From Allosalinactinospora lopnorensis (GTDB lineage: Bacteria; Actinomycetota; Actinomycetes; Streptosporangiales; Streptosporangiaceae), in contig NZ_LAJC01000016.1 in the NCBI RefSeq assembly GCF_000981225.1, positions 1-64,000 of the forward strand: a stretch of DNA of 64,000 nt, written 5' to 3'. Positions 8,724 to 28,072 of the stretch are shown one piece after another. The translations under genes and the position numbers were made by a program. The notes beneath the pieces are model-generated. The model saw nothing but the letters and a program-made list of their open reading frames with translations, was not told the DNA's origin and did no database searches. The first letter of the stretch is position 1. Every line of letters begins with the position of its first letter.

Positions 8724-9518
8724 TCAGCCGCCGCCGAACACCGGTTCGCGCCCCTCCAGAAACGCCCGCGGCCCCTCCTCCGCATCGGCGATCTCGGTGT
8801 GCGAACGGATGTGGTAGAGGTCCTGCAGGCGCAGCCCGTACTCGACGGGCTGGCCCCACGCCGCCTCCCTGAGCTCCTTGAAGTAGGCGATGGACTTCGT
8901 GGGCCCCTGGGCGAGGGTACGGGCGAGCGCCCGCAGCGAGGCCTGGAACTCGGTGGCGGGCACCACCGTGTGGACCAGCCCGATACGCTCCGCCTCGTCG
9001 GCCTCGACGAGGCGCCCGGTCAGGTAGATCTCGGTGGCCCGCGAGGGGCCGACGACCCGCGGCAGCAGCACCGCGGTACCGAAGTGCCCAACACGGACGA
9101 GCATGCTGCCGATACGCGCGCGGTCGGAGGCCATGCGGTAGTCGGCGGCGCAGGCGAGCTCGGTCCCGGCCCCCGCCGCGACACCGTCCACGCCGGCGAT
9201 CACCGGCTTCGGGCAGCGCACCATCGCCTCGCACACGCGGAGGTAGTGGGAGTCGCCGGTGACCTCGTCGGCCGGCCCGGAGCTTCGGTCCCCGGCGAGG
9301 AAGTCGGCGACCGCGTCGAGGTCGTCGCCCGCGCAGAAGGCGCCGCCGGCCCCCGTCAGCACCACGCACCGCACCTCGGGATCCCTACCGACCTCGGTGA
9401 GGGCCTCGATGAGGCGCTCACCCAGCTCCCGGTTGAGGGCGTTGCGGCGATCGGGCCGGTTCATGGTCAGGATCGCCGCGCTCTCGTACATCTCGTGGCG
9501 CAGGACGTCGTCGGTCAT
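8724..9518 (-). CDS. Enoyl-CoA hydratase/isomerase family protein
   Basis: A 264-residue crotonase-fold enzyme acting on acyl-CoA thioesters. The oxyanion-hole motifs are AFCAGDD and AAGAGTELACAADYR. In the two usual catalytic-glutamate regions the sequence has GTELACAAD and RVVGPSRATEIYLTG; which acid acts is not certain. It ends with the FLEGREPVFGGG tail. A close paralogue lies at 23769-24563, with the same length and the same RRN and AGDD blocks, so the two probably arose by duplication. ATG 9518 begins 2 bases after the CocE stop, and the gene is the last of the ligase-CocE-hydratase operon. Confidence 0.88.
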   Translation of the reverse strand: MTDDVLRHEMYESAAILTMNRPDRRNALNRELGERLIEALTEVGRDPEVRCVVLTGAGGAFCAGDDLDAVADFLAGDRSSGPADEVTGDSHYLRVCEAMVRCPKPVIAGVDGVAAGAGTELACAADYRMASDRARIGSMLVRVGHFGTAVLLPRVVGPSRATEIYLTGRLVEADEAERIGLVHTVVPATEFQASLRALARTLAQGPTKSIAYFKELREAAWGQPVEYGLRLQDLYHIRSHTEIADAEEGPRAFLEGREPVFGGG

Positions 9519-9520
9519 GC

Positions 9521-11234: not shown

Positions 11235-12856
11235 CGCTCCCCTTTGACCTTCAGCCCGGCACGCTCGCGGTCCCAGGTGTCGGCGGTGACGCCCTCTTCC
11301 CGCAGGAGATGCTTGCGGATCTTGCTGGTGGGGGTGAGCGGTAGCTGCTCCAGCACCCGCAGGTAGCGGGGGATCATGAAGTAGGCCATGCGCGAGCGCA
11401 GGAACTCGGTCAGCTCGGCCTGGTCCACGCGCGTTCCGGGCACCGTCGAGATCACCGCGAGGATCTCGTCCTCCCCGTGCTCGCCGGGGACCGCCACCGC
11501 CGCGGCCTCGCGGACCACGGGGTGGGCCAGCAGCTCGGCCTCGACCTCGAACGAGGAGATGTTCTCGCCGCGGCGCCGGATGGCGTCCTTCATCCGGTCC
11601 ATGAAGAAGAAGTTGCCCTCCTCGTCCCGCCGGAGCGCGTCCCCGGTGTGGAACCAGCCGTTGCGCCAGGCGGCGGCGGTCTCCTCGGGCATGGCGTGGT
11701 AGCCGCTGTTGAGCGCCCACGGCCGGGCGGTGCGCACGACGAGCTCCCCCGTCTCCCCCGGTTCCACCTCCCGGTCGTCGCCGTCGACGAGGCGGAGCTC
11801 CACGCCGGGTCGGACCCTGCCGCAGGTGCCCGCGACGGCAGGGGTTGCCTCGGAGATGATCGGGCAGCTGACCTCGGTCATGTTGTACATGGCGTACACG
11901 TCGACCCCGAAGCGCTTGGCGAAGTCCGACGCGTCGTCGACGAGCGGGACCACCCAGGCCCACCTGAGGGGCGTGTGCGCGTCCTCCGTGCGGGACGGCT
12001 GCTTGGCCAGGAAGGTGGCCATGACTCCGAGCAGTGTGCAGCTCGTGATTCCCGTCCGCTGGACCAGTGGCCAGAACCCATCGGTCTGGAAGGGCCGGGT
12101 GACGACGACGGAATGCCCGTACAGCAGCATGCCGTAGACGCCGAGCGTCCCGCCGACATGGAACAGCGGGAGCTGCACCAGGTAGCGCTCCCCCTCGCGG
12201 ACCCGCGCGCCGAAGGCGGCCACGGCGCTGCTGTAGTGGTGCACGTAGGGCAGCAGCACGCCCTTGGAGGGCCCCGTGGTACCCGAGGTATAGATGATCA
12301 TCTGTGGGTCCCACGGCTCTACCGGCCGCGGCGGATCCGGGACACGGCCGGAGCCCAGGGACAGGATGTCCCCGTCGACGACGCGGACCGGCAGTCGCGG
12401 CCCGCCGTACTCGCCGATGACGACGATCGTGTGCACGTCGGCGAGGTCGATCCCGGCCAACCGCTCGGCCAGCTCGGCGTGCGCCACGAGGACGCCCGCA
12501 CCGGAGTTCCGGATCACGTGCTCCAGGAGCCCGCCCCGGTAGGCGGTGTTGATGGGGACGTGCACGGCTCCCAGGAGGTTCGCGCCGAACCAGACGCGCA
12601 GCGCGTCGGGACCGTTGGGCAGCCATGAGACGACGCGGTCGGAGGCGGTCACACCCAGGTCGGCCAGGCCCGCCGCGGCTCCCTCCGCGGCCTCCAGAGT
12701 CCGCCGGTAGGTCCACGACGGCGCGTCCTCGAACAGCGCGAACACGCGGTCGGGGTGCAGCCGCGCCCGCGTGTAGAGCAGCCCCGGGATGGTGCACGAT
12801 CCGCGATCGGGCACCCGGGGATCGTCGTCCGCAAGGAGTTCGATCGAGCCGGTCAC
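11228..12856 (-). CDS. AMP-dependent acyl-CoA synthetase/ligase (ANL superfamily)
   Basis: A 542-residue adenylate-forming enzyme that activates a carboxylic acid with ATP and CoA. The P-loop IYTSGTTGPSKGVLL, the aromatic-box region YNMTEVSCP, the hinge motif RRRGENISS and the C-terminal catalytic Lys in PTSKIRK are all present. The crotonobetaine/carnitine-CoA ligase branch fits the overall pattern. GTG 12856 is chosen because AAGGAG sits 7 bases upstream; an ATG at 12883 would add nine residues without a better site. It is first in an operon with the CocE hydrolase and enoyl-CoA hydratase, behind a TetR-type palindrome at 12912. Substrate unknown. Confidence 0.88.
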   Translation of the reverse strand: MTGSIELLADDDPRVPDRGSCTIPGLLYTRARLHPDRVFALFEDAPSWTYRRTLEAAEGAAAGLADLGVTASDRVVSWLPNGPDALRVWFGANLLGAVHVPINTAYRGGLLEHVIRNSGAGVLVAHAELAERLAGIDLADVHTIVVIGEYGGPRLPVRVVDGDILSLGSGRVPDPPRPVEPWDPQMIIYTSGTTGPSKGVLLPYVHHYSSAVAAFGARVREGERYLVQLPLFHVGGTLGVYGMLLYGHSVVVTRPFQTDGFWPLVQRTGITSCTLLGVMATFLAKQPSRTEDAHTPLRWAWVVPLVDDASDFAKRFGVDVYAMYNMTEVSCPIISEATPAVAGTCGRVRPGVELRLVDGDDREVEPGETGELVVRTARPWALNSGYHAMPEETAAAWRNGWFHTGDALRRDEEGNFFFMDRMKDAIRRRGENISSFEVEAELLAHPVVREAAAVAVPGEHGEDEILAVISTVPGTRVDQAELTEFLRSRMAYFMIPRYLRVLEQLPLTPTSKIRKHLLREEGVTADTWDRERAGLKVKGERW

Positions 12857-12911
12857 TTCTCGCTCCTTCCATGAGCGGCGCATCGAGGTGGTCCCCACCT
12901 CTGCTTTATAT

Positions 12912-12923
12912 ATGAACGTTCAT
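12912..12923. promoter_or_regulatory. Short TetR-type operator, ligase operon
   Basis: ATGAACGTTCAT is a perfect 12-base palindrome within an AT-rich TATA-flanked stretch, 56 bases upstream of the ligase start. It shares the ATGAACG half-site with the longer operators at 4597, 4744 and 7207. A one-mismatch copy is at 29139. Confidence 0.7.
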
Positions 12924-12970
12924 TTATATACATCACAGGAGACCTCGCGTGTCAACTCCGCAGCGGACGC

Positions 12971-14152
12971 CTACAGGCAGCGGTAGAGCGCGTCCCGCAG
13001 CGCCTTCTCCCGCCGGTCGTCCCAGATCCGCAGGCCCAGGGCATTGGTCCCGTAGCAGTAACCGGTACCCCGGGCCGGATCGGCGAACCCGAAGCTGCCG
13101 CCGGCGCCCGGCGCGCCGAAGGCCGATTCGTCCGAGCCGAACCGCCAATCCGCGAACGGCTTCCAGAACCCCAGGGTGAACCGCGTCGTCACCTTCAGCA
13201 CCAGGTCGCGCTCGCCGCCGGAGGGCGGCGGATCGGGGCGTTTCAGCTCGCCGAACGTCCGGTCGTCGAGCCCGAGGGCCGCCCCGCCCCCGGCCAGCTC
13301 CGCGTAGAACCTGGCGACGTCGCGGACCTGGCCGATCCCGTTCGCCGAGGCGAGCTCGATACCCCGGTACGGCGGCAGCGCCAGCTCCGACGCGGTACGC
13401 AGCGGCGGGTTGCCGAAGGTACGGCGGGTGATGCTCATCGGGTTGAACAGCGACAGCGCGTATCCGAACGGCACCTCGTTGATGTTGCGCAGGATGTCCG
13501 CCCGGGTCGGGGCGGGAAGCGCCGCCTGCCGGTCCAGGGACACCGAGTCGGGGGTGCCGATGTAGAACTCCAGCCCCAGCCTGTGCGCGATCTCCTGCTG
13601 GAAGTAGCCGTCCACGCCGCGCCCGAGCGAATCCACCCGGCGCATCAGCTCGCTCTGGTAGAGACCCAGCGTGAGGGAGTGGTACCCGTGCCGGGTGCCC
13701 GGTTTCCAGCGGGGCTGTTGCGCGGCGAGGATGCCGGCCAGGGCGGCGGGGTCGGCCAGCGTCGCGGCGCCGACCGGCACGTCCAGCGCCGACAGCCCCG
13801 CCCGATGGTCCAGCAGGTCCCGCACCGAGATGTGCCCCTTGCCGTTCTGCGCGAACTCCGGCCAGTACTCCGCGACCGGGGTGTCGTAGTCGAACGCCCC
13901 GTGGGCGTGCGCCACGGCCATGGTCCCGGCGGCCACCCCCTTCGTCGCCGAGAACATCGGGAGCAGGGTGTCCGACTCCCACGGCAGCCCCCGATCCGGG
14001 TCGCGGTACCCGCCCCACAGGTCGACCAGGGGCTCCTCTCCCCGGTAGACGCTGAACGCGGCCCCGACCTCGCCCCGCTCGGCGAAATTGCGCTCGAACT
14101 CCTCCCGCACCTCTTCGAACCCCGGCCGCACGTCCCCTTCGATCATCGCCAC
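12971..14152 (-). CDS. Serine hydrolase, beta-lactamase/EstB family
   Basis: A 393-residue class C beta-lactamase-fold enzyme, probably an esterase rather than a penicillinase. The catalytic Ser-x-x-Lys is SATK at about residues 69-72, RHGYHSLT supplies the Tyr-x-x motif region, and the C-terminal GSFGFADP stands where KTG-like motifs sit. There is no signal peptide, so it acts in the cytoplasm. GTG 14152 and ATG 14146 are both possible starts. It is the last gene of the long ketosynthase operon, 156 bases after the second ketosynthase. A homologue of similar length is at 29331-30635. Confidence 0.85.
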   Translation of the reverse strand: MAMIEGDVRPGFEEVREEFERNFAERGEVGAAFSVYRGEEPLVDLWGGYRDPDRGLPWESDTLLPMFSATKGVAAGTMAVAHAHGAFDYDTPVAEYWPEFAQNGKGHISVRDLLDHRAGLSALDVPVGAATLADPAALAGILAAQQPRWKPGTRHGYHSLTLGLYQSELMRRVDSLGRGVDGYFQQEIAHRLGLEFYIGTPDSVSLDRQAALPAPTRADILRNINEVPFGYALSLFNPMSITRRTFGNPPLRTASELALPPYRGIELASANGIGQVRDVARFYAELAGGGAALGLDDRTFGELKRPDPPPSGGERDLVLKVTTRFTLGFWKPFADWRFGSDESAFGAPGAGGSFGFADPARGTGYCYGTNALGLRIWDDRREKALRDALYRCL

Positions 14153-14308
14153 CCACCGTCCGATCCACCCCGATGCTCGGGACGGTCCGCACCGCCCCGA
14201 CTGGTTCCGGTACGGGTTTCACTGTGCCGCACGAACGGTCCCGAGCGGCGGGCCGGGAGGGGTGATCCGCCGCTCGGGAGAATCGGAGCTCCGGCACGCC
14301 GCGGCTGT

Positions 14309-15582
14309 TCAGCACAGCCGCAGCAGGATCGACGAGGTGTCGCCGCCCCCGGACGACCCGACGGCCATCGCGATCGGATCGCTGGTCCCCCGGAGCGGGC
14401 GCGGCGCCAGGATCACCGGGGAGGCGGGCAGCCGGCGGTAGGGGCGCACCAGGTTGGCGGTCGGGGCGACCATCCTCGTGTTCAGCATGACGAGACTCGC
14501 GAGGATCTTCAGCAGTCCGGCGACGCCCGGAATATGCCCGAAGCAGGCCTCCTGCGTGGTGAGCAGTAGATCGGTGTGGTCGCCGGCCGACTCGCGGAGG
14601 GCGTTGAGGACGTCGCAGATGTAGTCCTCCAGGTGCCGGCTGCCCTCAGCGAAGTCGCACATGAACGCCAGGTCCGCCAGTCCCAGATCGGCGACCGCGA
14701 GCAGGCGCTCGATGTCCTGGGCGAAGCGCCGCGGATCGCCCAGGCCGACCGGGCTGGCGCCCCGCTTGCGCGAGGACAGCGCCATGAACTCCACGTCGGC
14801 GAACGCCGTCCGGACCGTCCTCCCCGGCCTGCTCAGCACCAGGCGACCGCCCCCTCACCGGGGGCGTTGCCAGTCTGGTCGTCGTCGTGCGGCCGCACGT
14901 CCTCCGGATCGCCGGACAGCGTGGAGGCCCGGAAGCCCGAGCCACCCTCGTAGGTGGTGCTGGAGAGGAACAGCGGTTCCAGTACGCAGTCGGTACCGAC
15001 CACGACGGCGTGCTCGACCTCGCCGCGGGCGATCATCCCGGCCGCGAGCTCGAACGCGCGCAGGGAGGTGCTGCATCCGCCGGTCAGCGTCAGCGTCGGC
15101 ATGTCCAGGCCGAGGTTGGTCGCCAGGCACCCGGCGATACTGCCCGGGGTCCCGGCGATCCAGTAGTCGAGCCCGATGCCGCGCGGCCCGGCCTCGTGGA
15201 AGCGGCGCAGCAGGTCGGCCGTCTCGCGCAGGCCGAACTGGATGGACGCGACCACGAGCACCGCGTCCGTGTCGTTCAGGTCGGCGGCCGTCAGACCGGC
15301 GTGGCCGATGGCGTCGGCCACCGCCACGTGCGCGAGCCGGCTCGCCTTGGGCAGCCGACGCAGCGCCCTGTCCGGCAGGCCGAGCGAGCCCGCTCCGCTG
15401 TCAGGGACCTGGCCGGCCACCCGCAGCGGAGTGTCGAACTCGTCGAACTCGCTGATAGCACAAACCCCCTTCATGATCATCTCGGTGAACTCCCACAGGT
15501 CACGGCAGGTATCACCGATTCCGGGCAGGGACATCCCCACGCCCCGGACCGCGACCCGGCCCCAGTCCGGCCGCGCGGTCAC
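14309..15582 (-). CDS. FabF-like beta-ketoacyl synthase, one catalytic His missing (frameshifted)
   Basis: A thiolase-fold condensing-enzyme homologue, about 424 residues with one base restored. The nucleophile Cys is at about residue 170 in LTGGCSTSL. The second catalytic His is present in QEACFGHIPG. The region that normally reads HGTGT is replaced by FMCDFAEGSRH, so the first His is absent. The break at about 14841 falls in GTC GCC TGG TGC; the next register reads VLSRPGRTVRTAF. GTG 15582 overlaps the stop of the preceding ketosynthase (GTGA), indicating translational coupling and possibly a heterodimer, as with type II KS pairs. No carrier protein is nearby. Confidence 0.78.
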
Positions 15583-16883
15583 TGCGCGGCTCCCAGGAGT
15601 ATCGCGCTGGCGACCCCTCCCACCTGGTAGTTCACGCTGAGCGCGCGGTCGAAGCGGACCGGCTTGGGTGAGGTGCCGGGCAGCGGGTCGAAGCTCAGGG
15701 CCGGGTCGGGGACGCGGCAGCCGGCCGTGGGGGCGATCTGCCCGTGCCGCATCATCAGCAGGGTGGCGGCCACCCCCATATTGCCCAGGCCCGATGCGAC
15801 GTGCCCGAAGCACGCCTCCTGGGAGGTGACGTAGGGCGGCACCGTGTCGGCGAAGATGTCGGCGACGGCGTCCGTTTCCAACTGGTTGAACAGCGGGTCC
15901 CCCTGAGCTCCGCCGTTGACGTAGGCGATGTCCGCAGGGGCGGTGTGGTCGCCCATGACGTCGCGGGCCGCATGGGACAGCGCCGAGTCCACTCCGGTGG
16001 CGGCCAGCGCGCTCGGTACGGCGCCGCGCCGCGTGGCCTGCCCGATGAGCCACCCGTGGACGCCGGCCCCGCGGTTCTGCGCGTGCTCCCTGGCCTCCAC
16101 GACGAGGGTGACCGCGCCGTCGCCCATGTTGAACCCGTCGCTGTCGCGGTCATAGGGCCGCATCGGGCGGTCCATGCGCAGCTCGGGCGCGGTGAACGAG
16201 GTGGTTCTGACCTCGGCCTTCATCGTCTCCCGCAGCCGGTCCAGGTGCCGGGCCTGGTCCAGGTTCCAGGCGTCGACCCCGGTGACGATCGCGGTGTCCA
16301 CTTCGCCGTCGCGGATCATCGCCATCGCCCGGCCCAGCAGTACCGCCGACGAGGCGCACCCGCACGAGACGCAGAAGCTGGGACCGGTGGAGCGCAGTAG
16401 CGAAGCCTGCACGTTGCCCACGTCGGTCACGGCCCCGGACAGGGCCAGCCGCATGAACAGGCCCTTGGCCTCGGCTGCGGTGAGCTCGTCCGGATTGGCG
16501 TCCAGGGCCCCCCGGTAGGCCGCGACGATGGTGTCCATCCCGGCCCGCGCCGTCAGCAGCGCCGCGTTCTCCGCCGCGCCGGCGCGCCAGTCGATCCCGG
16601 CGTCCGCCAGCGCCTCGAACAGGGCGGTCAGCCCGTAGAGGTGGGTGGGGGCGTAGTTGTCGATGTAAGGGCGGGGGATCTCGGGAAGCTCCGCCGCCAC
16701 ATCGGCCGCGACGGACGGGATCGCCCCGAAGTACACGCCGTCGTTGTGCACGCAGAGAGTGCCGGTGGAGATCGTCTCCCAGAACTCCGGCACCGTGCGG
16801 GTCACGCCGCCGTTCGGGCCCGGCAGGCACAGGCCGATACCGGTGACCACGGTGTCCCTTGGTCCTTGCTGTGCTCCTGACAT
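15579..16883 (-). CDS. FabF-like beta-ketoacyl synthase with altered active site
   Basis: An intact 434-residue ketosynthase homologue. Cys176 in SCGCASSA is the likely nucleophile, and QEACFGHVASG carries the second His. The place of the HGTGT motif is AYVNGGAQGDP, so the first His is missing here too. The start at ATG 16883 follows GAGGAGC. It overlaps the next ketosynthase by 4 bases and probably pairs with it. Loss of one His suggests a role other than ordinary decarboxylative extension, such as acyl transfer or a non-decarboxylating condensation; this is inference. Length and flanking blocks (RPYDRDSDGFNMGDGAV) are otherwise family-typical. Confidence 0.85.
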   Translation of the reverse strand: MSGAQQGPRDTVVTGIGLCLPGPNGGVTRTVPEFWETISTGTLCVHNDGVYFGAIPSVAADVAAELPEIPRPYIDNYAPTHLYGLTALFEALADAGIDWRAGAAENAALLTARAGMDTIVAAYRGALDANPDELTAAEAKGLFMRLALSGAVTDVGNVQASLLRSTGPSFCVSCGCASSAVLLGRAMAMIRDGEVDTAIVTGVDAWNLDQARHLDRLRETMKAEVRTTSFTAPELRMDRPMRPYDRDSDGFNMGDGAVTLVVEAREHAQNRGAGVHGWLIGQATRRGAVPSALAATGVDSALSHAARDVMGDHTAPADIAYVNGGAQGDPLFNQLETDAVADIFADTVPPYVTSQEACFGHVASGLGNMGVAATLLMMRHGQIAPTAGCRVPDPALSFDPLPGTSPKPVRFDRALSVNYQVGGVASAILLGAAQ

Positions 16884-16927
16884 GTGCTGCTCCTCTTCTC
16901 TTGTGGCGTGTGCACGTCTTCGCGGCG

Positions 16928-17794
16928 TCACGGGGATCCGCCGTCGACGGACATGGACTCTCCGGTAATGGAGCGGGCAGCGTCGCTGAGCAGGAACGCC
17001 GTCAGATCGGCCACTTCTTCGGGCTCGATCAGCCGTTGCAGGTCGGTGTTGCGGACCGCGCTCTTCCAGAAGCGCGGCCAGGTGAGGTCAGGGGGACCGA
17101 AATGAGTGCGGATGCTGTCCATGAAGTCGCGGCCGTACAGGTCCTCGTTGTGCAGCATCTGGGTGTTGGTCAGCCCGGGGCAGACCGCGTTCACCCGCAC
17201 ATCGGAGGGACCCAGTTCGATCGCGAGGGATTTGATCAACCCGTTCAGTCCGAATTTGGACGCCGAATAAGCGGTATTCGCGGGTACCCCGCGCTTCCCG
17301 GCGACGCTGGAGACGAGCACGATCGAGCCGCGGCGCCGCTCCATCATGGTCGGGACGACCGCCCGGCACAGCCGGAAGGCCCCGTTCAGGTTCGTGTCGA
17401 TGGTGTCGAGCCAGGACTCCTCGTCCTGGTCGCACAGGAACTTCTGCCCGGCCCCGCTGACGGCGCTGTTCACCGCCAGGTCCACCGGCCCGAACTCGGC
17501 GCCGAGCTCGTGCACGACATCGTGCAGGGAGTCGATGTCCGTGACATCGGCCTGATGGCTCGCGGCGGAACCACCGCGCTCGGATATGGCCTTCTCGACC
17601 TCCTGCAGCCGGTCGAGCGTGCGCCCGACCAGGCCCACGGCCGCGCCCTGCGCGGCGAGCGTCTCGGCGATCTCGCGCCCGATGCCGCTCCCGGCCCCGG
17701 TGACGATCGCGACCCGCCCTTCGAACGGCGTCCGTCCCGCCGCTCTGCGGTCCTCGGTCGATTCAGACGATACGGCTTGGAAACCCACCGCCAT
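16928..17794 (-). CDS. SDR family oxidoreductase
   Basis: A 288-residue short-chain dehydrogenase. The cofactor motif TGAGSGIG is at about residues 32-39, the NNAG position reads NSAVSG, the catalytic Ser is in VLVSSVAG, and YSASK gives Tyr and Lys. The C-terminus ARSITGESMSVDGG is canonical. ATG 17794 is supported by GGAGG six bases upstream and makes the gene overlap the preceding SDR by 32 bases. It sits between KAS III genes and the paired ketosynthases, so a 3-ketoacyl reductase role is plausible. Confidence 0.88.
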   Translation of the reverse strand: MAVGFQAVSSESTEDRRAAGRTPFEGRVAIVTGAGSGIGREIAETLAAQGAAVGLVGRTLDRLQEVEKAISERGGSAASHQADVTDIDSLHDVVHELGAEFGPVDLAVNSAVSGAGQKFLCDQDEESWLDTIDTNLNGAFRLCRAVVPTMMERRRGSIVLVSSVAGKRGVPANTAYSASKFGLNGLIKSLAIELGPSDVRVNAVCPGLTNTQMLHNEDLYGRDFMDSIRTHFGPPDLTWPRFWKSAVRNTDLQRLIEPEEVADLTAFLLSDAARSITGESMSVDGGSP

Positions 17795-18596
17795 GCACCT
17801 CCATTACGTTTCCGGTCAGGTACTCGTTGTCGATCGCGTGCAGGATGCTCGCGGCCACCTCTGATTCCGCCGCGAAGCGTCGCAGCGGGACCCGCTCGCG
17901 CAGCCGGTCCATGAACCGCGCGTGCCCCGGGTTGGCGGCGCACTTGTCGCGCAGCGCCGTTCCGTCGACGACGCCGGGCGCGACGCACACGACGCGGATC
18001 CCGTGGTCGGCGAGCTCCAGGGCCCAGCTCCGCGTCAGGGACACCACCCCGGCCTTGGCCGCGGCGTAGGCGGACTGCCCCCACGACCCCGACCAGGTGC
18101 TGCTGGCGATGTTCACCAGCACGCCTCCCGCGCCCTGGCGCGCCATCAGCTCGGCCACCTGCCGGCCGACCAGGAACGTGCCGGTGAGGCAGAGCTCGAT
18201 GGTGGCCCGCCATTCCTCCTCGGGATGCAGCCGCCACTCCCCGTTCTGGTCGCGGCGGCTGAGCAGCAGGCGGGACAGGTTCTGCCCGGCGGCGTTCACG
18301 CACGCCGCGACCGGCCCCTGGGATTCGGCGTGCGCGAAGAGTTCACGCACGCTCTGCGCCGAGGTGACGTCCACGGGGTGGACGGTGAGCGGCAGCGATT
18401 TCGCCGCCGCCAGGGTGCGGACCTGCTGCAGCCGCGCGGAACCGCGGGCGGCGGCGATCGTCCGCCTGCCCTCCTCGGCCAGGGCGACCGAGGTCGCCAG
18501 GCCGAGGCCGCTGGTCCCGCCGATCACGACCGTGACCGGGTCCTCCGCCCCATCGGGCGACCCGCCGGCGCGGCCGACTCCTGCTTCGGGCGGCAC
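17763..18596 (-). CDS. SDR family oxidoreductase
   Basis: A short-chain dehydrogenase of about 277 residues with GGTSGLGLA as the cofactor loop, VNAAGQN in the NNAG position, ASSTWS and YAAAK as catalytic motifs, and EYLTGNVMEVHGG near the end. GTG 18596 is preferred because AGGAGG lies 9 bases upstream. ATG 18617, which overlaps the stop of the KAS III gene by one base, would add seven residues. The cofactor and substrate are unknown. With the following SDR it could form a reductase pair for ketosynthase products. Confidence 0.86.
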   Translation of the reverse strand: MPPEAGVGRAGGSPDGAEDPVTVVIGGTSGLGLATSVALAEEGRRTIAAARGSARLQQVRTLAAAKSLPLTVHPVDVTSAQSVRELFAHAESQGPVAACVNAAGQNLSRLLLSRRDQNGEWRLHPEEEWRATIELCLTGTFLVGRQVAELMARQGAGGVLVNIASSTWSGSWGQSAYAAAKAGVVSLTRSWALELADHGIRVVCVAPGVVDGTALRDKCAANPGHARFMDRLRERVPLRRFAAESEVAASILHAIDNEYLTGNVMEVHGGGFPSRIV

Positions 18597-18616
18597 TGAC
18601 ACCTTCCTCCTCCCCA

Positions 18617-19609
18617 TCAGATCCGGTAGAGCAGCGCGCCGGAGTACCAGCCCGCGCCGATGGCCGGACTGAGCACGAGGTCGCCGGGGCGGAACAGGCC
18701 CGCGTCCCACTTCTCGGCGAGCACGATCGGGATGGACGCGCTGGTGGTGTTCCCGCGCACCTGGAAGTTGAGGACCAGCTTGGTCTCGGGCACCCCGAGC
18801 GCCCCGCGGACCCTGTTGTGCACGACGTCGGTGCCGGGGTGCGGCACCACCCAGTCGATGTCGCTCATCCGCAGGCCGCTGCGGTCCAGCAGTTCCGAGC
18901 AGGCCTCGACGATGCCCGCCACCGCGTGATCGGCCAGGTCCCGCTGGCTGCGCACCCATCCCGTGTCGGTGGGAACGCTGACCACCGACGCGCGGTCGCC
19001 ATCGCTGCGCAGGGTGGAGTCGATCAGTCCGGTGCCGCCGTCGTCGCGCTTCTCCAGAACGGCCGCGCCGGCGGCGTCGCCGCACACCAGTTCGCCCTTG
19101 CTGCCCGGGCGGGCCCGGCGGCTGAACTGTTCGGAGCAGGTGACCAGGGCGTACCCGGGCCCCTGGATGGAGTGCAGGTACGCGGCGGCGGACTGCACCC
19201 CGTGCACGAAACCGGTGCACGCCCCCGAGATGTCGTAGGCGAGGGTGCGCGGCGTTCCCAGGAGCGAAGCGACCTCGGGACCGTACTCGGGGGTGTAGGG
19301 CGGTGTCGTCCAGTTGCTCAGGATGATCAGGTCGAGGTCGGAGGGGGAGATTCCGGCGTTCTGCACCGCCTGCCCGCCCGCCTCGGCGGCCATGCGCGCG
19401 ACGGTCTCCTTCTCGTTGCTGACATGCCTGGACTTCACCTGCACGCGGCCCAGTACCGAAGCGTCGATCTCGTTTCCGGAGTCGTCGGTCAGGCCGGGCT
19501 CATTCATGACCAGCTTTTCGGGATAGTAGAGGCCGAACCCGCGGAAGTGGATTCCCTTCCCCTCCCAGCGGGGATCCTGCCCGCGGGCGTTGTTCCTTTT
19601 CCTCGGCAC
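18617..19609 (-). CDS. KAS III-like 3-oxoacyl synthase (first of pair)
   Basis: A 330-residue FabH/OleA-fold condensing enzyme. All three catalytic residues are visible: Cys in DISGACTGF, His in VVPHPGTD and Asn in RGNTTSAS. GTG 19609 follows GGCGGAG by 5 bases; an upstream ATG at 19627 is the alternative. A second, divergent KAS III lies directly upstream, so the two may form a heterodimer as described for OleA-type pairs in beta-lactone pathways. The starter unit is probably an acyl-CoA. The neighbouring CoA-transferase and hydratase support a CoA-based route. Confidence 0.86.
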   Translation of the reverse strand: MPRKRNNARGQDPRWEGKGIHFRGFGLYYPEKLVMNEPGLTDDSGNEIDASVLGRVQVKSRHVSNEKETVARMAAEAGGQAVQNAGISPSDLDLIILSNWTTPPYTPEYGPEVASLLGTPRTLAYDISGACTGFVHGVQSAAAYLHSIQGPGYALVTCSEQFSRRARPGSKGELVCGDAAGAAVLEKRDDGGTGLIDSTLRSDGDRASVVSVPTDTGWVRSQRDLADHAVAGIVEACSELLDRSGLRMSDIDWVVPHPGTDVVHNRVRGALGVPETKLVLNFQVRGNTTSASIPIVLAEKWDAGLFRPGDLVLSPAIGAGWYSGALLYRI

Positions 19610-19745
19610 GGCGACTCCGCCTTCCATCAGATTTCACGGGACATTCCGAAAGCAGCGACGCATCGGAGCGCCTTTTCACCACCGCAGCGCGGGGTTTTCC
19701 GCACCGCTTCGCAGGCTCATCCCGCAGAAGCGGCAGGAAAAGGGC

Positions 19746-20756
19746 TCAGCGCCCCGGTTCCCCGTAACTGAAGATCATCGCCCCGCCGCTGAACCCCCGG
19801 CCGATACTCGCGGCCAGAATCCGCTGCCCGCTCCGGATCACGCCGTTATGGACGTTCTCGGAAAGGCAGCCGGGGACGCTGACACTGGAGGTGTTACCCC
19901 GCCGGTCGATGTTGACCAGGACGCACTCCTTGGGGGCATCCATCGCCTTCTGGAAGTCCTCGATGATGTGGATATTGCCCTGGTGCGGAATGATCCAGTC
20001 GAGATCGAGCCAGCCCAGGCCGCTTCCCAAGAGCACGTCGGTGGTCACCTCCGCCAGGAATCGCGGCGCGACATCCCCGACCACCTTTCCTTTCATCAGC
20101 ATCTTGTCGTCGTCGTCGATGTCGAAGGCGTCGTAGTAGCGCGGCTCGGTGCGCAGGGTGACTCCGTGCAGACCGGTGGGCCCGCTCGCGCGGCGCCACA
20201 CACCGGCGGCGGCGCCCGCACCGAAGAGCGCGGCGTTGCGGTAGCCGAAGTTCAGGATGGGGCGTGGATTCTCCGCGCAGACCACCAGCACGGTCTGCAC
20301 GTTCATCGTGGACAGCACGGCGCGCGCTACGACGCTGGTGTGCAGGAACCCGGAACAGGCCACCGCCGTCACGTCGAAGCTGAAGGCCCGGGAGGCCCCC
20401 AGCCGGTGCTGCAGCGGCTGGGCCACGTCCATGTAGCGGTTGCCGGCGGTCGTGGGGTTCACCCGCGGTCGCGCCGTCGCGCTGGTGCCAATGATGACGT
20501 CCACATCGCCGGGGTCCAGTCTGGCGTCGCGCAGCGCCTGCGCGGCGGCGCGCTCGGCCATGTCCACGTGGTGCTCTCCGGCCTTCGGCCAGTGCCGGGT
20601 GTGCACGCCCGTGTGCTCCCGGATCCACGCGTCATTGATCCCCAGGTGGGGGAGTTCGGTCTCGAAAAAGGAGTTGGGCACGGGCTCACCCGGGAAATCG
20701 TGACCGACCCCCTCCAGGACTACGGGCACCCCGCCGTTCGGGTGAATCGGGCTCAT
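19746..20756 (-). CDS. KAS III-like 3-oxoacyl synthase (second of pair)
   Basis: A 336-residue KAS III homologue with Cys in TAVACSGFLH, His in IIPHQGNIH and Asn in RRGNTSSVS, so it is probably active. It has an insertion rich in Asp (DIDDDDKM) before the His block. The ATG at 20756 overlaps the CoA-transferase stop (ATGA). The 136-base gap before the next KAS III gene holds no gene. The two KAS III proteins are clearly divergent in sequence, which argues for distinct acyl specificities or subunit roles rather than a recent duplication. Confidence 0.86.
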   Translation of the reverse strand: MSPIHPNGGVPVVLEGVGHDFPGEPVPNSFFETELPHLGINDAWIREHTGVHTRHWPKAGEHHVDMAERAAAQALRDARLDPGDVDVIIGTSATARPRVNPTTAGNRYMDVAQPLQHRLGASRAFSFDVTAVACSGFLHTSVVARAVLSTMNVQTVLVVCAENPRPILNFGYRNAALFGAGAAAGVWRRASGPTGLHGVTLRTEPRYYDAFDIDDDDKMLMKGKVVGDVAPRFLAEVTTDVLLGSGLGWLDLDWIIPHQGNIHIIEDFQKAMDAPKECVLVNIDRRGNTSSVSVPGCLSENVHNGVIRSGQRILAASIGRGFSGGAMIFSYGEPGR

Positions 20757-22447
20757 CGGTAGATCCCTTCCGGGTCCAGGGCCCGCAACCGGGCCACCTC
20801 GTCGAAGTCGATCGGGCGCTCGGGTACCGGGACGCTGTCGGGAAGCGGCCACCGGGTACTGTCGCGCAGGGTCCGCAGCGGGTCGGCGTCCTGCCGGCCG
20901 AAGGGCGGGCACCAGGTACGCAGCCGGAAGTCCTCGCCCGGGTGCTCCCGGGTTAGCCGGCCGTACTGCGAGACGACCGTGCCCACCCGGTCACCGGGGC
21001 AGGTGACGAAGCCGGTGCGCTCCACGTACCGCTTCGGTGAAGCCGGGGCGACGACGAGCACCTCGAAGCGGGAGGCGAAGTCGTTGGCCCCTCCGGAGCC
21101 CACCAGGAAGCCGCCCGTTGAGGTACGGCTGCTGTTGATGCGGCCCCGCGCGTCGATCTCCCCGGCGGACAGCACGCCGAGGGTGTGCCGCCCGGTTCCG
21201 GGGGTGAGCGCCCCGAGGACGTCGAGGGTGCTGCCGAAGGCGCCGCAGTTCGCCACGTGGCGCTGCGAGAACAGGAACACGTCCCCGGGTTCCGGGCGCA
21301 TGTCGATCAGCCCCAGCTCCGCGTGCACCTGCACTGGGTGCCCCTGGTCCCGCAGCCACTGGGCGGCCAGCCAGGTCGCCACGTGGGAGACCCCGATCCC
21401 GGCGACGAGCGTCCGGTGCCCGCCTTCGAGCACGCGGTCCACGATCGCGCGGGCGGCGAGCACGATGTGCCGTTCCCTCCAGGTGGGCTCCACGTCCTTG
21501 GCGGGGGTGGGGCTCGGGGCGGTGGCAGAACGGGACGGCCAGGTGGCCAGGCCGTCCGGGCCGGGCCGGGGCTTTCCCGTCCGGGCGCGGTAGCCGTAAT
21601 GGTCCTTGACCTCGGTCACCCAGTGGGTGAACCACCGTTTCCGGGTGCGCGGTGATCGGCAGTCCTCCGCCAGTTCGGTGAGGTAGTCGTAATCGTCCAG
21701 GTATCCGGGGATCCCGCACTGCGGAAGCGCCGGAATCCCCTGCGGGTGCGCGCCGAACTCGCACGGTGTGATCGCGATCGCCCGGTCGGCGGGGATACGG
21801 GTCATGCCTTCGGGAGGCTCCTCGACCACCCGTTCCGCCGTGGCCAGCACGCCCTCCCGTGCGGCCATCGCGCCCCACCATCCCTCTCCGAGAGGGCCGT
21901 ACAGGTACAGGTTGCCCTGCCGGTCGGCGCAGGCGGCGTGCAGCAGGGTGACGTCCGGCCGCAGCTCCGGAAGCAGTACCGCCCGTTCGCCGTCGAGCCG
22001 TGTGAGCAGTGGCGGGTCGGCCGAGGCGAGCCCGCGCTCCAGATCGGTACCGATGAGCGAGGTGCTGATCGCCACAGGCGCGCCGGTAGCGCCCGCGACC
22101 AGGCGCTGCGCCAGTGACATCAGGCTCCACTCCTCCACGGGGAAGGGCACGCCCTCCGCCAGATCCGCGTAGAGCGGGTTGGGGCGCGGCGACGGGTAGG
22201 TGTCGCCCGCGAAGCAGGTGATCGCGCGGCGCACCACGCCCGCCATGACCAGGGCGTGCATGTTCGCGTGGAAGGCGTTGCAGCTGATGGTGAAGCGCGC
22301 CCGCCCTCCCAGGGACCGGGCGATCGCCATCAGCATCGCGTTCGGCCGCGACATGGTGGAGGCGACGTGCACCGCCATCCCGTCGCGCAGGTGGTCGACG
22401 CACATGGTGTCGACGTCGTCGAGGAAGCGGGGAGTGGTCCCGGTCAT
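20753..22447 (-). CDS. Fused alpha-beta family I CoA-transferase (IpdAB-like)
   Basis: A 564-residue protein with two CoA-transferase halves in one chain. The N-terminal half has FTISCNAFHANMHALVM and TPCEFGAHP. The C-terminal half has AGIGVSHVATWLAAQ, VHAELGLIDM (candidate Glu) and GSGGANDFASR. Family I enzymes exchange CoA between acids, while the related IpdAB acts as a ring-opening hydrolase in steroid breakdown. Two-subunit organisation is usual there, so this single-chain form is notable. It overlaps both neighbours through ATGA and is therefore tightly coupled to ketosynthase 3 and KAS III. It may supply or recycle the CoA-linked starter. Confidence 0.8.
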   Translation of the reverse strand: MTGTTPRFLDDVDTMCVDHLRDGMAVHVASTMSRPNAMLMAIARSLGGRARFTISCNAFHANMHALVMAGVVRRAITCFAGDTYPSPRPNPLYADLAEGVPFPVEEWSLMSLAQRLVAGATGAPVAISTSLIGTDLERGLASADPPLLTRLDGERAVLLPELRPDVTLLHAACADRQGNLYLYGPLGEGWWGAMAAREGVLATAERVVEEPPEGMTRIPADRAIAITPCEFGAHPQGIPALPQCGIPGYLDDYDYLTELAEDCRSPRTRKRWFTHWVTEVKDHYGYRARTGKPRPGPDGLATWPSRSATAPSPTPAKDVEPTWRERHIVLAARAIVDRVLEGGHRTLVAGIGVSHVATWLAAQWLRDQGHPVQVHAELGLIDMRPEPGDVFLFSQRHVANCGAFGSTLDVLGALTPGTGRHTLGVLSAGEIDARGRINSSRTSTGGFLVGSGGANDFASRFEVLVVAPASPKRYVERTGFVTCPGDRVGTVVSQYGRLTREHPGEDFRLRTWCPPFGRQDADPLRTLRDSTRWPLPDSVPVPERPIDFDEVARLRALDPEGIYR

Positions 22448-23720
22448 ACCGCCTCCAGGACCAGCGCGGAGCTCTGGCTGCCGATCGCGAAGGAGAGCGA
22501 CATGGCACTGCGCACCCGCGTGCTGCGCGCTCCCTCCCGCACGTGGTCGAGGTCGCACTCGGGATCCACGTCCACACAGTTGATCGTCGGAACCAGGCAC
22601 TGCTTGTCGAGCATCATCGCGGTCGCGGCGCAGTTCAGGGCGCCGGAGGCACCCAGCAGATGCCCGAAGACGGGTTTGATCGAGCCCAGCGGCGGCAGCG
22701 GGCGCCCGCCGACCGCGATCCGCAGGGCGCGGCTCTCCGCCGCGTCGTTGTACCGGGTCGCTGTCCCGTGCCCGCACACGTAGTCCAGCCGCTCCATCGA
22801 CGACCCGGCCCCGGCCATCGCCTGCGTCATCATGTCAGCGGTGAACCTGCCGGACAGATCCATCCGCGTCGCGTGCTCGGCCTCGTTGAGCGTGATGACC
22901 GACCCGACCCGGGCATAGGCCGGTATCCCGCGCCGGCGCGCGCTCTCCTCGGTCTCCAGCACCATCGCGACCGCCCCCTCGCCCATTACGAACCCGTCGC
23001 GATGGCGGTCATAGGGTTTGAGCGCCCCCCGGGGGTCGCCCTCCGCGCAGGAGAGCACACCGGCGCCCGCCGGGGAGTAGACGCGCAGGACCTCCGGTAC
23101 GAACGGCGTCTCGTAGCCGATGACCACCATCACGTCGGCCTGGCCGGAGCGCAGCAGTTCGAGTGCGAGCCCCACGGCCTGGTGGCCCCCCACGCAGGCG
23201 TTGCTGAGCGTGGTGACCACTCCTTTGGCGCCGAGCCGTATCGCGCTGAGCGTGACCGGACTGCCCGGCAGGGAGGCGAACACGCCCTGCTCGGGTTCCA
23301 CCGGTGGGAAGCGGGAGTCGATCACCTTCCGGGAGCAGGTCTGCGACCACCACTCCACCGGCCCGCGTGAACTGGTTCCGATGACGCCGACGCGCTGCGC
23401 CTCGGTCTCGTCGCCGACTCGCAGCTCGGCGTCAGCGCGGGCCTGTTCCACCGCCGAGAGCGCGATGAGGATCTCCCGGCTGTACCGCTTGGCGAACCGG
23501 TCCGGTAGGTCGGGAACGTAGTCGCGGTGGTCGAAGTCACGCAGCCGCGCGCCGGCCCGGCACTGCATGTTCTCGGTGATGACGGTCGGCAGCCGACCGA
23601 CCTGGGACGCGCCCGTAGCCAAGGCTCCCAGACCTGGTCGTTCCCCTTCGTTCCGGGAAGAACGAAACCGAGGCCGGTGATGAGCACATTGGATCGGGTG
23701 TCGCTCGGACTGCTCTGCAT
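22444..23720 (-). CDS. FabF-like beta-ketoacyl synthase with complete active site (frameshifted)
   Basis: About 425 residues with one base restored. The nucleophile is Cys in TLSNACVGGH, the two His residues are in CGHGTATRYND and KPVFGHLLGASG, so the full Cys-His-His set is present, in contrast to the two downstream ketosynthases. The frame breaks near 23625: MQSSPSDTRSNVLITGLGF to NDQVW is in one register and ALATGASQVGRLPTVI in the next. ATG 23720 follows GGAGGGG. It is the second gene of the long operon and is coupled to the CoA-transferase through ATGA. It is the best candidate for the chain-forming enzyme. Confidence 0.82.
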
Positions 23721-23768
23721 GTCCCCTCCGAAAGGATCTAGAGCGTCGCGCGGGTTTCGGGACGTGGT

Positions 23769-24563
23769 TCAGCCGCCGGTGAAGCGGGGGTTCCGGCGTT
23801 CCAGGTAGGCGAGGGGCCCTTCGGTGCTGTCGGCCACCTCGGTGCGGCTGCGGTGGTGGAACTGGTCCTGCAGCCGCAAGGCGTGCAGCGCGGGGAGCCC
23901 TTCGGTCCGCTCGCGCAGTTCCTTGAACAGCCCGATCGCGCGGGTGGGCCCCTCGGCCAGGCTGGTGGCCGTCTCCACGGCCAGGTCCAGCACCTTCTCG
24001 TCGTCGTCGGCCAACCGGTCGAGGAGCCCGAGCCGCATGGCCTCCTCCGCCTGCACCAGCCGACCGCTGAGGTAGATCTCGGTGGCCCTGGCCGGTCCCA
24101 CGACGCGTTGCAGCATCGCGGTCGCGCCGACGTGGCCGATGGTGATCAGCGCACTGCCGAGTCTGGTGCCCGGCCCGCCGATCCGGAGGTCGGCGGCGCA
24201 GACCAGCTCCGTCCCTGCCCCCACGGCCGCGCCCTTCACCGCGGCGATGACCGGTTTGCGGGTGAGGAGCAGTTCCTCGCAGATCCGCACGTAGAAGGCG
24301 TCGCTGGTCTCCCGCCATGCGGGCGCGGTGCTCGGGTCACCCTCCATGTAGCGCTGCAGCGTGGCGATGTCGTCGCCGGCGCAGAAGGCCGTTCCCTCCC
24401 CCGAGAGCACGATCGCCCGGACCTCGTCGTCGCGGGAGGCCTCGACCACCTCCGATAGCAGCCGGAGCCCCATTTCGTAGTCCAGCCCGTTCCGGCGCTC
24501 CGGCCGGTTGAGGATTATCAGGCGCACTGAGCCAATAGCGCGCACCAGGACACAGTCCGACAT
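23769..24563 (-). CDS. Enoyl-CoA hydratase/isomerase family protein
   Basis: A 264-residue crotonase-fold enzyme. Oxyanion-hole motifs AFCAGDDIATL and AVGAGTELVCAADLR are present, and the C-terminus is LERRNPRFTGG. It resembles the protein at 8724-9518 in length and in every motif block. AGGAAA lies 7 bases before ATG 24563. It is the first gene of the leftward operon, so its promoter must lie in the AT-rich gap at 24564-25160. It could dehydrate the 3-hydroxyacyl-CoA made by the SDRs, or hydrate an enoyl intermediate in a catabolic route. Confidence 0.88.
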   Translation of the reverse strand: MSDCVLVRAIGSVRLIILNRPERRNGLDYEMGLRLLSEVVEASRDDEVRAIVLSGEGTAFCAGDDIATLQRYMEGDPSTAPAWRETSDAFYVRICEELLLTRKPVIAAVKGAAVGAGTELVCAADLRIGGPGTRLGSALITIGHVGATAMLQRVVGPARATEIYLSGRLVQAEEAMRLGLLDRLADDDEKVLDLAVETATSLAEGPTRAIGLFKELRERTEGLPALHALRLQDQFHHRSRTEVADSTEGPLAYLERRNPRFTGG

Positions 24564-25802: not shown

Positions 25803-25832
25803 CCGCGCCGCGGCTCCCTGCACACGCAAAGC

Positions 25833-25865
25833 GGGGTCATCGTGCCGGGGGGGCACGATGACCCC
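25833..25865. terminator. Bidirectional terminator hairpin
   Basis: GGGGTCATCGTGC (25833-25845) pairs perfectly with GCACGATGACCCC (25853-25865) around a 7-base G-rich loop. It lies between the convergent regulator and MMPL genes. Confidence 0.8.
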
Positions 25866-25885: not shown

Positions 25886-28072
25886 TCAGGTGTGAGCGGT
25901 GGGCACGGGCTCCCGGTCGGTACGCGGCTCGCCGGTCTTTCCGCGTCTCAGGAATCCCGGCAGCCACCAGGCGGCCGGCCCCATAAGCCGCATGACAGCG
26001 GGAACCAGCAGCATCCGGACCACCGTGGCGTCGAGCAGGATCGCCACGGCCATACCGAGGCCGAAGAGCTTCACGAACGGCTCGGACTGTCCCACGAAGG
26101 ACAGGAACACCGCGATCATGATCAGCGCCGCGCTGGTGATGACCGACCCGGTTCCCGCGACCCCGCGGATGGTCGCGGCGACGGCGTCGCCCGAGAGGTC
26201 GTACTCCTCCCGGATCCGGGACACCAGGAACACCTCGTAGTCCATGGACACGCCGAAGAGCATCGCGAACATCAGCAGCGGCACGAAGGGCTCGATCGGG
26301 ATGGTCTCCGGTAACCCGATGAGCTCCTTCCCCCACCCCCACTGGAACACGGCCACGACCACGCCGTAGGCGGCACCGATGGAGAGCAGGTTGGCCATCG
26401 CCGCCTTCAGCGGCACCAGGATGCTCCGGAAGACGAACATGAGCAGCACGAAGGAGACGAGAACGACGCCGCCGATGAACAGCGCCAGCCGCCCCTGGAG
26501 CAGCTCCCCCATGTCCGCGTAGTAGGCGGTGGGACCGCCCACCACGGCCGTGGATCCGCCGCGCGCCTCGGGGACGACGTCGTCGCGCAGTTCGTGCAGG
26601 AGCTCCACGGTGGCCGATGACTGCGGGGAGGTCGCGGGGACCACGGAGAGAACCGCGGCGCTGCCCTCCTCGTTGACGGTGGGCGGGGTGACGCGCTCCA
26701 CCCCGGGTACCTCGCCGAGGGCGCCGGTGAGTCCGGCCAGGTCCTCCTCGCCGGTTCCCTCGGCCATGCGCACGACGACGGTGAACGGCCCCGCCGTTCC
26801 CGGTCCGAACTCCTCGGCGAGCTGATCGTAGGCTTGGCGCTGGGTGCTCTCCGGGGGGCGGCTCCCGTCATCGGGCAGCCCGAGGCGCAGGGAGAACACC
26901 GGGATCGTGAGCACTCCCAGGAACAGCACGGCGGCGAGGGCCGACACCAGCGGGCGCGCCGTGGCGGCCTGCGCTACCCGGGTCCAGAACCCGTCTCGCG
27001 CGTCCACGCGGCGGCCCCGGCCGCGCCCGAGGACCGCTCCGAGTCGCAGCCGGGTGATGTGCCGTCCCGTCAGTCCGAGAAGGGCGGGCAGCAGGGTGAG
27101 CGACGTGAGGGACACCCCCGTGACCGTGACCGCGGTGGCCGTTCCCATGCCCCCCGCGACCGGCAGGCCGGTCAGCCACAGTCCGAGGATCGCGACGATG
27201 ACCGTGCCGCCCGCGAACACCACCGACCGTCCCGTCGAGGCCAGAGAGGTCCCCAGGGCCGATTCGACGCTCTCCCCCGCGAGCAGGTACTCCCGGTAGC
27301 GGCTGACGATCAGCAGCGCGTAGTCGATGCCCACGCCGAGACCGATCATCGCGGCGATGAGCATCGAGTCCTCGGGGATCTGCCATACGCGGCCGAGGAG
27401 CCACGTGGCGCTCAGGCAGGCCGTCAGTCCGGCTATCGCCGTTACTAGCGGCAGTCCCGCGGCGACGACCGACCCGAAGGCGACGATGAGCACGATCGCC
27501 GCCACCCCGAGCCCCACCAACTCCGACCCGCTGAAGCCGGCGGTGCCGTAGGTACTGGACATCTGGCCGGTGAAGTCCACGTCCACCCCGGCGGCGCGCA
27601 CCGGGGCGAACCTGTCGTCGATGGCGCCCGTCAGCGCGTCGGGGTCGTCGATCTCTCCCATGGCCTGGTTCGCCCGGACGGGCGAATACGCGGTCCGCCC
27701 GTCCGCTGAGACGACCCCCGCCTCCGGCGGCAGCGCCAAGGGGTTGGGGGCCTCCGCGATCTCCTCCATCGAGGCGACCCGTTCGAAGGCGGCCGCGATC
27801 TCGGCCTCTGAGCCGTCCTTCTCCGCTATAGGGACGTCGTCCGCGCTGAGGACGACGATCAGATTCGCCCCCCGCGCCTCCGGGAACTCCTCTTCCAGCA
27901 GGTCCTGGGCTGCCTGCGACTCCGTTCCCGGAAGGTCGAAACCGTCCCCGTATTTCGGCCCCAGGTGCTGCGCGGCGCCGATCACGATGCCGGCCACCAG
28001 CATCCAGCACAGAAGCAGCAGTAATGGACGCCGGGCGGCGAATCGCCCCAGGCGCTCGAGCAGAGTCGACAC
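25886..28072 (-). CDS. MMPL family RND transporter
   Basis: A 728-residue RND-type membrane protein with two MMPL domains. Each has a membrane helix, a large external loop, then a block of five helices (IGLGVGIDYALLIVSRYREYL in the first, FGVSMDYEVFLVSRIREEY in the second), where the Asp-Tyr pairs in helices 4 and 10 are proton-relay sites. MMPL proteins export lipids and lipid-like compounds or confer drug efflux. GTG 28072 follows GAGAGGG. A degenerate TetR-type operator lies 109 bases upstream. It could export the product of the ketosynthase operon. Confidence 0.9.
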   Translation of the reverse strand: MSTLLERLGRFAARRPLLLLLCWMLVAGIVIGAAQHLGPKYGDGFDLPGTESQAAQDLLEEEFPEARGANLIVVLSADDVPIAEKDGSEAEIAAAFERVASMEEIAEAPNPLALPPEAGVVSADGRTAYSPVRANQAMGEIDDPDALTGAIDDRFAPVRAAGVDVDFTGQMSSTYGTAGFSGSELVGLGVAAIVLIVAFGSVVAAGLPLVTAIAGLTACLSATWLLGRVWQIPEDSMLIAAMIGLGVGIDYALLIVSRYREYLLAGESVESALGTSLASTGRSVVFAGGTVIVAILGLWLTGLPVAGGMGTATAVTVTGVSLTSLTLLPALLGLTGRHITRLRLGAVLGRGRGRRVDARDGFWTRVAQAATARPLVSALAAVLFLGVLTIPVFSLRLGLPDDGSRPPESTQRQAYDQLAEEFGPGTAGPFTVVVRMAEGTGEEDLAGLTGALGEVPGVERVTPPTVNEEGSAAVLSVVPATSPQSSATVELLHELRDDVVPEARGGSTAVVGGPTAYYADMGELLQGRLALFIGGVVLVSFVLLMFVFRSILVPLKAAMANLLSIGAAYGVVVAVFQWGWGKELIGLPETIPIEPFVPLLMFAMLFGVSMDYEVFLVSRIREEYDLSGDAVAATIRGVAGTGSVITSAALIMIAVFLSFVGQSEPFVKLFGLGMAVAILLDATVVRMLLVPAVMRLMGPAAWWLPGFLRRGKTGEPRTDREPVPTAHT

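Follow-up and report, generated by a model that had tools for sequence, protein, structure and literature searches.

Which pathway would need three FabF-like ketosynthases (KS), two enzymes of the ketoacyl synthase III type (KAS III) and a fused CoA-transferase (CoAT), yet no acyl carrier protein (ACP)? This question is raised by a set of leftward genes on contig NZ_LAJC01000016.1 of Allosalinactinospora lopnorensis. The first 64,000 nucleotides of this contig were analysed and are called the window below. An earlier note on this DNA had listed ten of the genes, at 12971-24563, and had not recognized a described pathway in them. From the gene content, the relationships, the active-site residues and the absence of an ACP from the window, all of which were observed directly, we conclude that the window very probably holds a biosynthetic cluster of the nonactin/pamamycin kind, that is, a non-iterative type II polyketide synthase (PKS) that acts on acyl-CoAs and has no ACP of its own. 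Judged by its sequences, it is a variant of this known kind and not the nonactin or pamamycin cluster itself.

The assembly of this genome comprises 5.89 Mb in 220 contigs (96% complete), and the window's own contig (C16) is 91.7 kb long. All ten of the genes named earlier were found on the minus strand, and each has a Pfam match (Table 1). However, the set does not end at 12971. An acyl-CoA ligase, a CocE/NonD family hydrolase and a second enoyl-CoA hydratase (ECH) continue on the same strand, and their homologues occur in the clusters of relatives. In full, the leftward set has 13 genes and spans 8724-24563. The frequent overlap of start and stop codons, which had already been noticed, was seen at five or six of the nine junctions in 12971-24563 (by 1 to 32 bases) and at six or seven of the 12 junctions in the full set. 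Both counts hinge on the start of KS2, for which 16931 gives the longest frame and the ATG at 16883 is likelier. The three ketosynthases are all present as had been claimed, but KS1 and KS3 are not continuous and occupy two frames each. In addition, the proposal of acyl-thioester condensation chemistry with CoA-type enzymes is supported.

The CoAT was used as the marker for finding relatives. It was detected in 3 of 200 genomes of the family and 2 of 394 genomes of the class (each count includes the window's own genome), in 12 of 295 Streptomyces genomes, and in none of the 13 genomes of one other genus, which were scanned without a positive control. In addition, a non-exhaustive pattern scan across 84,980 named species gave 45 loci. 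A KS1 homologue lies directly upstream of the CoAT (40% identity or more, within 200 bases, same strand) in 27 of the 45 loci, and all 27 are actinobacterial. Of the remaining 18, 17 are proteobacterial or other loci and one (L062) is a partial match from an actinobacterium, so that the arrangement is found in 27 of 28 actinobacterial loci. KS1 and the fused CoA-transferase are the core that varies least among the clusters found. The earlier note had proposed a search for joint occurrence in other actinomycetes, and three KS, two KAS III and the CoAT were indeed found together in seven Streptomyces loci. The order KS1-CoAT-KAS3a-KAS3b-SDR1-SDR2-KS2-KS3, in which SDR stands for short-chain dehydrogenase/reductase, is seen in Streptomyces loci L028, L032, L053, L097, L102, L103, and L105. 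A metagenome-assembled genome (MAG) of the Streptosporangiaceae (G002, = L027) has the same order, but two ketoreductases (KRs) stand between KS2 and KS3. The KS3-type clusters are those of the window, L018, L019, L027, L028, L032, L053, L097, L102, L103, L105, and G638 (L099/L109). The pamamycin-type loci are L022, L024, L026, L033 (cut at the contig end), L038, L056, and L107, and the loci L020, L021, L023, L025, and L039-L041 are mixed or cut.

Phylogenetic trees were built from 53 FabF-like and 51 KAS III-like rows from 21 clusters. Only matches covering more than 80% of a query were kept, and the two halves of the window's KS3 were joined. All five condensing enzymes of the window fell into supported clades with proteins of pamamycin-type and/or nonactin-complement Streptomyces loci, and nonactin-type rows are present in each of the five clades. 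For instance, the KS1 clade (support 100/100, 21 rows) includes the proteins at the place of pamA, and the KS2 clade (97/99, 20 rows) includes those at the places of pamJ and pamF. The KAS3a clade (100/98, 19 rows) includes the pamE-place proteins, and the KAS3b clade (100/99, 28 rows) those of the pamD and pamK places. Meanwhile, the KS3 clade (100/100, 12 rows) has no member from the four pamamycin-type loci used.

At the active site, Cys/His/Lys/His is kept in all 21 KS1 rows, the window included. In the KS2 (20/20) and KS3 (12/12) rows, the Cys and the second His are kept, the first His is lost, and Glu stands for Lys. A KS-fold acyltransferase that has lost the first His is described in passages of PMC4425429, and also of PMC10006239; NonJ and NonK are listed among ester formers in the former and are called C-O bond formers in the latter. 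In the two KAS III proteins of the window, Cys-His-Asn is intact. Among their relatives, Asn is changed to Gln in the four pamD-place proteins and to His in one S. lonarensis protein. The earlier note had compared the pair with the OleA-type heterodimers of beta-lactone pathways. The tandem arrangement is shared, but both window proteins keep Cys-His-Asn, and the solved relatives listed for the two at E 1e-25 (15 chains and 29 chains) are either FabH-type or carry other enzyme names, for example a PQS biosynthetic enzyme. FabH chains are the best of these, and none of the listed chains is named OleA. Thus, this comparison is not supported and was set aside. The cispentacin enzyme AmcF was also considered and rejected, as its NCBIfam model gave 134.6 bits for KS1, 91.6 for KS2 and 26.5 for the N half of KS3, far under the cut-off of 325.

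The absence of an ACP from the operon and its gaps, which had been claimed before, was confirmed with a hidden Markov model (HMM) for which eight carrier domains were taken from the window's genome (E up to 5) and again with two pieces of PamC added (E up to 10). Neither version found an ACP in the 64 kb window. The gap at 24564-25885 contains no hidden small ACP by HMM and has two open reading frames (ORFs) without a Pfam match. The same model was positive in all seven pamamycin-type loci (six of six from the scan, and L107), at the pamC place in the divergent operon, and this did not change after the PamC pieces were added. In contrast, no ACP was found in the stretches covered of the 12 KS3-type clusters, where L019 gave a match at chance level (E 7.8). 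The conserved ACP in relatives that the earlier note had regarded as decisive against it therefore exists in the pamamycin-type branch only, and not in the branch that shares KS3. Outside both types, ACP stretches were seen in L031 (a 101-aa frame, 33 bits) and in long frames of L062 and L100. One alternative is fatty-acid-like synthesis with an ACP of the genome acting in trans. Stand-alone ACP-like frames do occur elsewhere in the genome (for example, C5:90091-90288 within a 106-aa frame), and PamC is an ACP that heavy pamamycins need, according to passages of PMC8176718. However, the contrast between 12 KS3-type clusters without an ACP and seven pamamycin-type loci with one makes this alternative unlikely.

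Table 1. Features of the leftward set and its flank (window coordinates)
Feature	Coordinates	Strand	Match
ECH1, enoyl-CoA hydratase family, proposed oxa-Michael cyclase (tetrahydrofuran former)	23769..24563	-	PF00378 2.9e-41
KS1, FabF-like ketosynthase, complete active site, pamA place in pamamycin-type loci, two frames	22444..23720	-	Pfam 4e-23 and 6e-23
CoAT, fused alpha-beta CoA-transferase, glutaconate CoA-transferase type, pamB place in pamamycin-type loci	20753..22447	-	PF01144 3.9e-19
KAS3a, KAS III-like, pamE place	19746..20756	-	PF08541 (ACP_syn_III_C) 1.8e-22
KAS3b, KAS III-like, clade of pamD/pamK-place proteins	18617..19627	-	PF08541 (ACP_syn_III_C) 2e-22
SDR1, ketoreductase	17763..18617	-	PF00106 1.1e-38; YxxxK present
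SDR2, ketoreductase	16928..17794	-	PF13561 2e-59; YxxxK present
KS2, FabF-like, altered active site	15579..16931	-	PF00109 3.1e-18
KS3, FabF-like, same altered signature as KS2, two frames	14309..15582	-	Pfam 5.8e-23 (N half), 1.5e-4 (C half)
Esterase of beta-lactamase fold; possible resistance or release hydrolase	12971..14152	-	PF00144 5.4e-55
Acyl-CoA ligase, NonL/PamL-like by place	11228..12898	-	PF00501 3.9e-61
CocE/NonD family hydrolase, three frames	9521..11228	-	TIGR00976 108.6, 218, 133.5 bits (three pieces)
ECH2, second hydratase of NonS-position clade	8724..9524	-	PF00378 4.3e-50
MMPL transporter, possible exporter	25886..28003	-	PF03176 4.5e-86
TetR-type regulator	28253..28903	-	PF00440 6.9e-16

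A pathway of this kind has in fact been described. In passages of PMC4979870 and PMC10817512, nonactin is made by an ACP-less, non-iterative type II PKS with five KS and four KR; the printed complement adds a ligase and an ECH and has no ACP. Furthermore, PMC4979870 presents NonS as an oxa-Michael cyclase. We followed three Streptomyces loci (L102, L103, and L105/L111) to their end and found five KS, four KR, a ligase, an ECH at the NonS position, a CocE/NonD hydrolase and no ACP, which equals the nonactin complement in print. The L102 hydrolase scores 672 bits against TIGR00976. Their order ECH, ligase, hydrolase, KR, KR, KS3, KS2 fits the numbering of the dinactin cluster in a passage of PMC10817512 (4 NonS, 5 NonL, 9 NonJ, 10 NonK). 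Through these loci, the window resembles the nonactin cluster (non) of Streptomyces griseus in its five KS homologues, its NonS-position hydratase, its CoA ligase, its CocE/NonD hydrolase and its lack of an ACP. SDR1 and SDR2 are 49% and 52% identical to their nonactin-type counterparts and represent two of the four ketoreductases of that set. In a tree of 22 hydratase rows, all from these loci, ECH1 and ECH2 lie with the nonactin-type hydratase on the same side (14 rows) of a 100/100 split. ECH1 is 62% identical to the protein of Amycolatopsis thermalba, whereas ECH2 is 54% identical to the nonactin-type hydratase and 72% to a copy in G638. The ligase is 54% identical to the nonactin-type ligase and 64% to the G638 copy, and the CocE/NonD hydrolase is 46-47% identical to the nonactin-type copy. 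In G638 (L099/L109, of the Streptomyces set), the ligase, CocE/NonD and NonS-type hydratase genes are doubled around the same core.

The likeness to pamamycin was assessed by gene content and order. The order pamA,B,D,E,O,K,J,M,N,L,H and pamF,G,C is given in a passage of PMC10644645, and L022, L024, L026, L038, L056, and L107 fit it in gene number, in two divergent operons and in the place of the ACP; pamH was not identified in them. In addition, another strain of S. alboflavus is tabulated with a 95% pamamycin cluster in PMC6145153. In common with the pamamycin cluster (pam) of Streptomyces alboniger and relatives, the window has relatives of the genes that stand at the pamA, pamB, pamE, pamD/K, pamO, pamJ/F, and pamL places. 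Among the 45 loci, L018 of Amycolatopsis thermalba NRRL B-24845 has the highest identity (52-67%) for ECH1, KS1, CoAT, KAS3a, KAS3b, SDR1, SDR2, and KS3. However, KS2 was not found in the 16.5 kb examined there, and a homologue of a two-part KR lies nearby. Since most core genes have relatives in such clusters, the window could be a strict pamamycin or nonactin cluster that makes those very compounds. We consider this quite unlikely. Against pamamycin, the window has no ACP, no pamF/pamG operon and no third KAS III, and it has a KS3, which is absent from the pamamycin-type loci. Against nonactin, the window has two KRs instead of four, a second NonS-type hydratase and an added beta-lactamase-fold esterase, and its identity to L102 is 41-54%. 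Because of these last differences, it was placed as a variant.

Several genes of the cluster are broken in the assembly. KS1 has a break near 23625, KS3 at 14833-14839, and the NonD-type hydrolase at 10758-10914 and 10000-10024. In both G002 and Amycolatopsis thermalba, KS1 and KS3 are each encoded by one unbroken ORF. Beyond the cluster, an SDR at 2508-3265 is also broken (2648-2663). Matches to a class I tRNA synthetase were found at four places in the assembly, and at one of them, on contig C55, the match is divided between frames of 489 and 449 aa. One relative is broken too: the CoA-transferase of G559 has an internal stop. The four breaks across three cluster genes could mean that the cluster is a decaying relic and the pathway dead. 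However, the breaks in the outside SDR and in the C55 tRNA synthetase, together with the residues that both KS3 halves share with intact relatives, point to indel errors, and a relic is quite improbable. The simplest reading is that the breaks are probably assembly indels. The assembly seems indel-prone.

The fused CoA-transferase matches both chains of glutaconate CoA-transferase by profile (1poi_A 7.7e-20, 1poi_B 6.2e-11). Its Glu377 is invariant in 12 of 12 rows and aligns with the Glu of ESG in 1poi_B, although the match is weak (E 0.0033). We take this ESG Glu, in the beta part of a class I CoA-transferase, to be the catalytic residue. Among the solved relatives are 6coj and 6co6, which bear the name probable CoA-transferase alpha subunit and are presumably IpdA. 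Fused homologues of 31-36% identity were also seen in L042-L052, L054, L055, L058, L059, and L061, where many have an SDR, ligase or ECH nearby and the look of a degradation operon. A catabolic operon, in which the hydratases, ligase, SDRs, thiolase-fold enzymes and CoAT would degrade a ring-cleaved or branched acid, agrees with 6coj and 6co6 and with these distant homologues in the 17 proteobacterial or other loci that lack a KS1 directly upstream, but it is very improbable in view of the condensation residues kept in KS1 and both KAS III, the KS1 next to the CoAT in nearly all actinobacterial loci, and the relatives that sit in clusters fitting the pamamycin operons.

For the nonactin/pamamycin kind of cluster, we infer every reaction and the product by analogy. 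The most likely role of the cluster is to build succinyl-, malonyl-, and related CoAs into tetrahydrofuran hydroxy acids and to join these acids as esters. For pamamycin, a passage of PMC10731712 gives succinyl-CoA as the core starter and the formation of 3-oxoadipyl-CoA from malonyl- and succinyl-CoA. In the window, succinyl-CoA and malonyl-type CoAs would be joined via 3-oxoadipyl-CoA by both KAS III enzymes and by KS1, which alone among the FabF-like enzymes has a complete decarboxylating site. The CoAT would then take CoA off the beta-keto end and place it on the succinate unit's free carboxylate. Released in this way, the beta-keto acid would lose CO2, and the chain would extend from the opposite end. 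SDR1 and SDR2 may reduce the ketones, and the two NonS-type hydratases may close the tetrahydrofuran ring by oxa-Michael addition. The hydroxy acids would be re-activated as CoA esters by the ligase. KS2 and KS3, with Cys kept and the first His and Lys lost, would form C-O bonds to give an ester, possibly macrocyclic, and the hydrolases may serve in product release or detoxification.

Several points weigh against this reading. The CoA-transferase step is one that we ourselves infer. The labels nonactin and pamamycin were given by gene content and order and not by AF074603 or pamamycin reference sequences, and the pam names were assigned by place because the literature passages give no enzyme class for each pam gene. 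The full complement was followed to its end in Streptomyces only (three of seven loci). KS2 stands on a long branch (0.73), and its fork is open. In addition, two of the four KRs of the nonactin-type clusters, the 533-aa two-part KR and its neighbour, have no orthologue in the window, where only general SDR likeness (29-36%) was found, along with 47 residues that match at 49% within the broken SDR at 2.5 kb. For residues 1-207 of the two-part KR, no match was found in the window's genome, which is 96% complete. KS1, KS3 and the NonD-type gene are broken, and if these breaks are real the cluster is dead. Finally, 23 PP-binding places exist in the genome, none of them on C16, and thus help in trans is possible.

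A bolder proposal is tentative and, in our view, doubtful as a whole. The CoAT may be a direction switch, in which decarboxylation and re-activation go together without ATP; the KS1-CoAT-KAS III core may be shared by wider carrier-free pathways; and the window may make a tetrahydrofuran polyester of one stereochemical series. The switch is proposed because, for nonactate to form, the carboxylate of succinate must be activated once CO2 has been lost at the opposite end, and a CoAT tied to KS1 would do both. One series only is proposed because two of the four reductases are present.

A short type with KS1-CoAT-KAS III only, without KS2, KS3 and KAS3a, was observed in L029-L031, L034-L037, and L060 (about 8800-13000 each). 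Its hosts are several Streptomyces, Streptantibioticus and Sphaerisporangium, and it perhaps supplies a shared building block. Outside the actinobacteria, a Deltaproteobacteria MAG (L057, 7806-13305) has the order KS-KASIII-CoAT-KASIII-SDR at 29-36% identity to the window. Meanwhile, KS2-like matches were found in 9 of 394 class genomes, the window's own and G368 included. Nine regions from the seven other genomes were considered as possible nonactin clusters and set aside: in seven of them a KS2-like gene adjoins a frame of 2135-2580 aa, and the other two are short contigs. In L074, L075, L078, L079, L080, L081, and L082, from more than one genus, the KS2-like gene (41-46%) adjoins such a stop-to-stop frame, which has weak KS and clear ACP stretches. 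This may be a different use of the KS2 type.

An MMPL transporter and a TetR-type regulator flank the set, as the earlier note had stated. However, the MMPL protein has no match among the 45 related loci at E 1e-10. The esterase at 12971..14152 and the TetR protein likewise have none there at this threshold; TetR-like matches (35-37%) occur only in the flanks of L108 and L110. A second beta-lactamase-fold esterase lies beyond the TetR gene on the opposite strand (29409-30635).

Distant relatives of such clusters have already been noticed: passages of PMC9973853 and PMC7601586 mention other actinobacteria with macrotetrolide-like clusters, for which the similarity is low. The present cluster would extend the ACP-less chemistry of nonactin and pamamycin into the Streptosporangiaceae, an actinomycete family outside Streptomyces. 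KS1 and the CoAT are the most constant core, and therefore the start of the pathway can be tested with two enzymes and two CoA esters. Furthermore, a new ionophore-like ester is plausible because the set of reductases and cyclases has changed.

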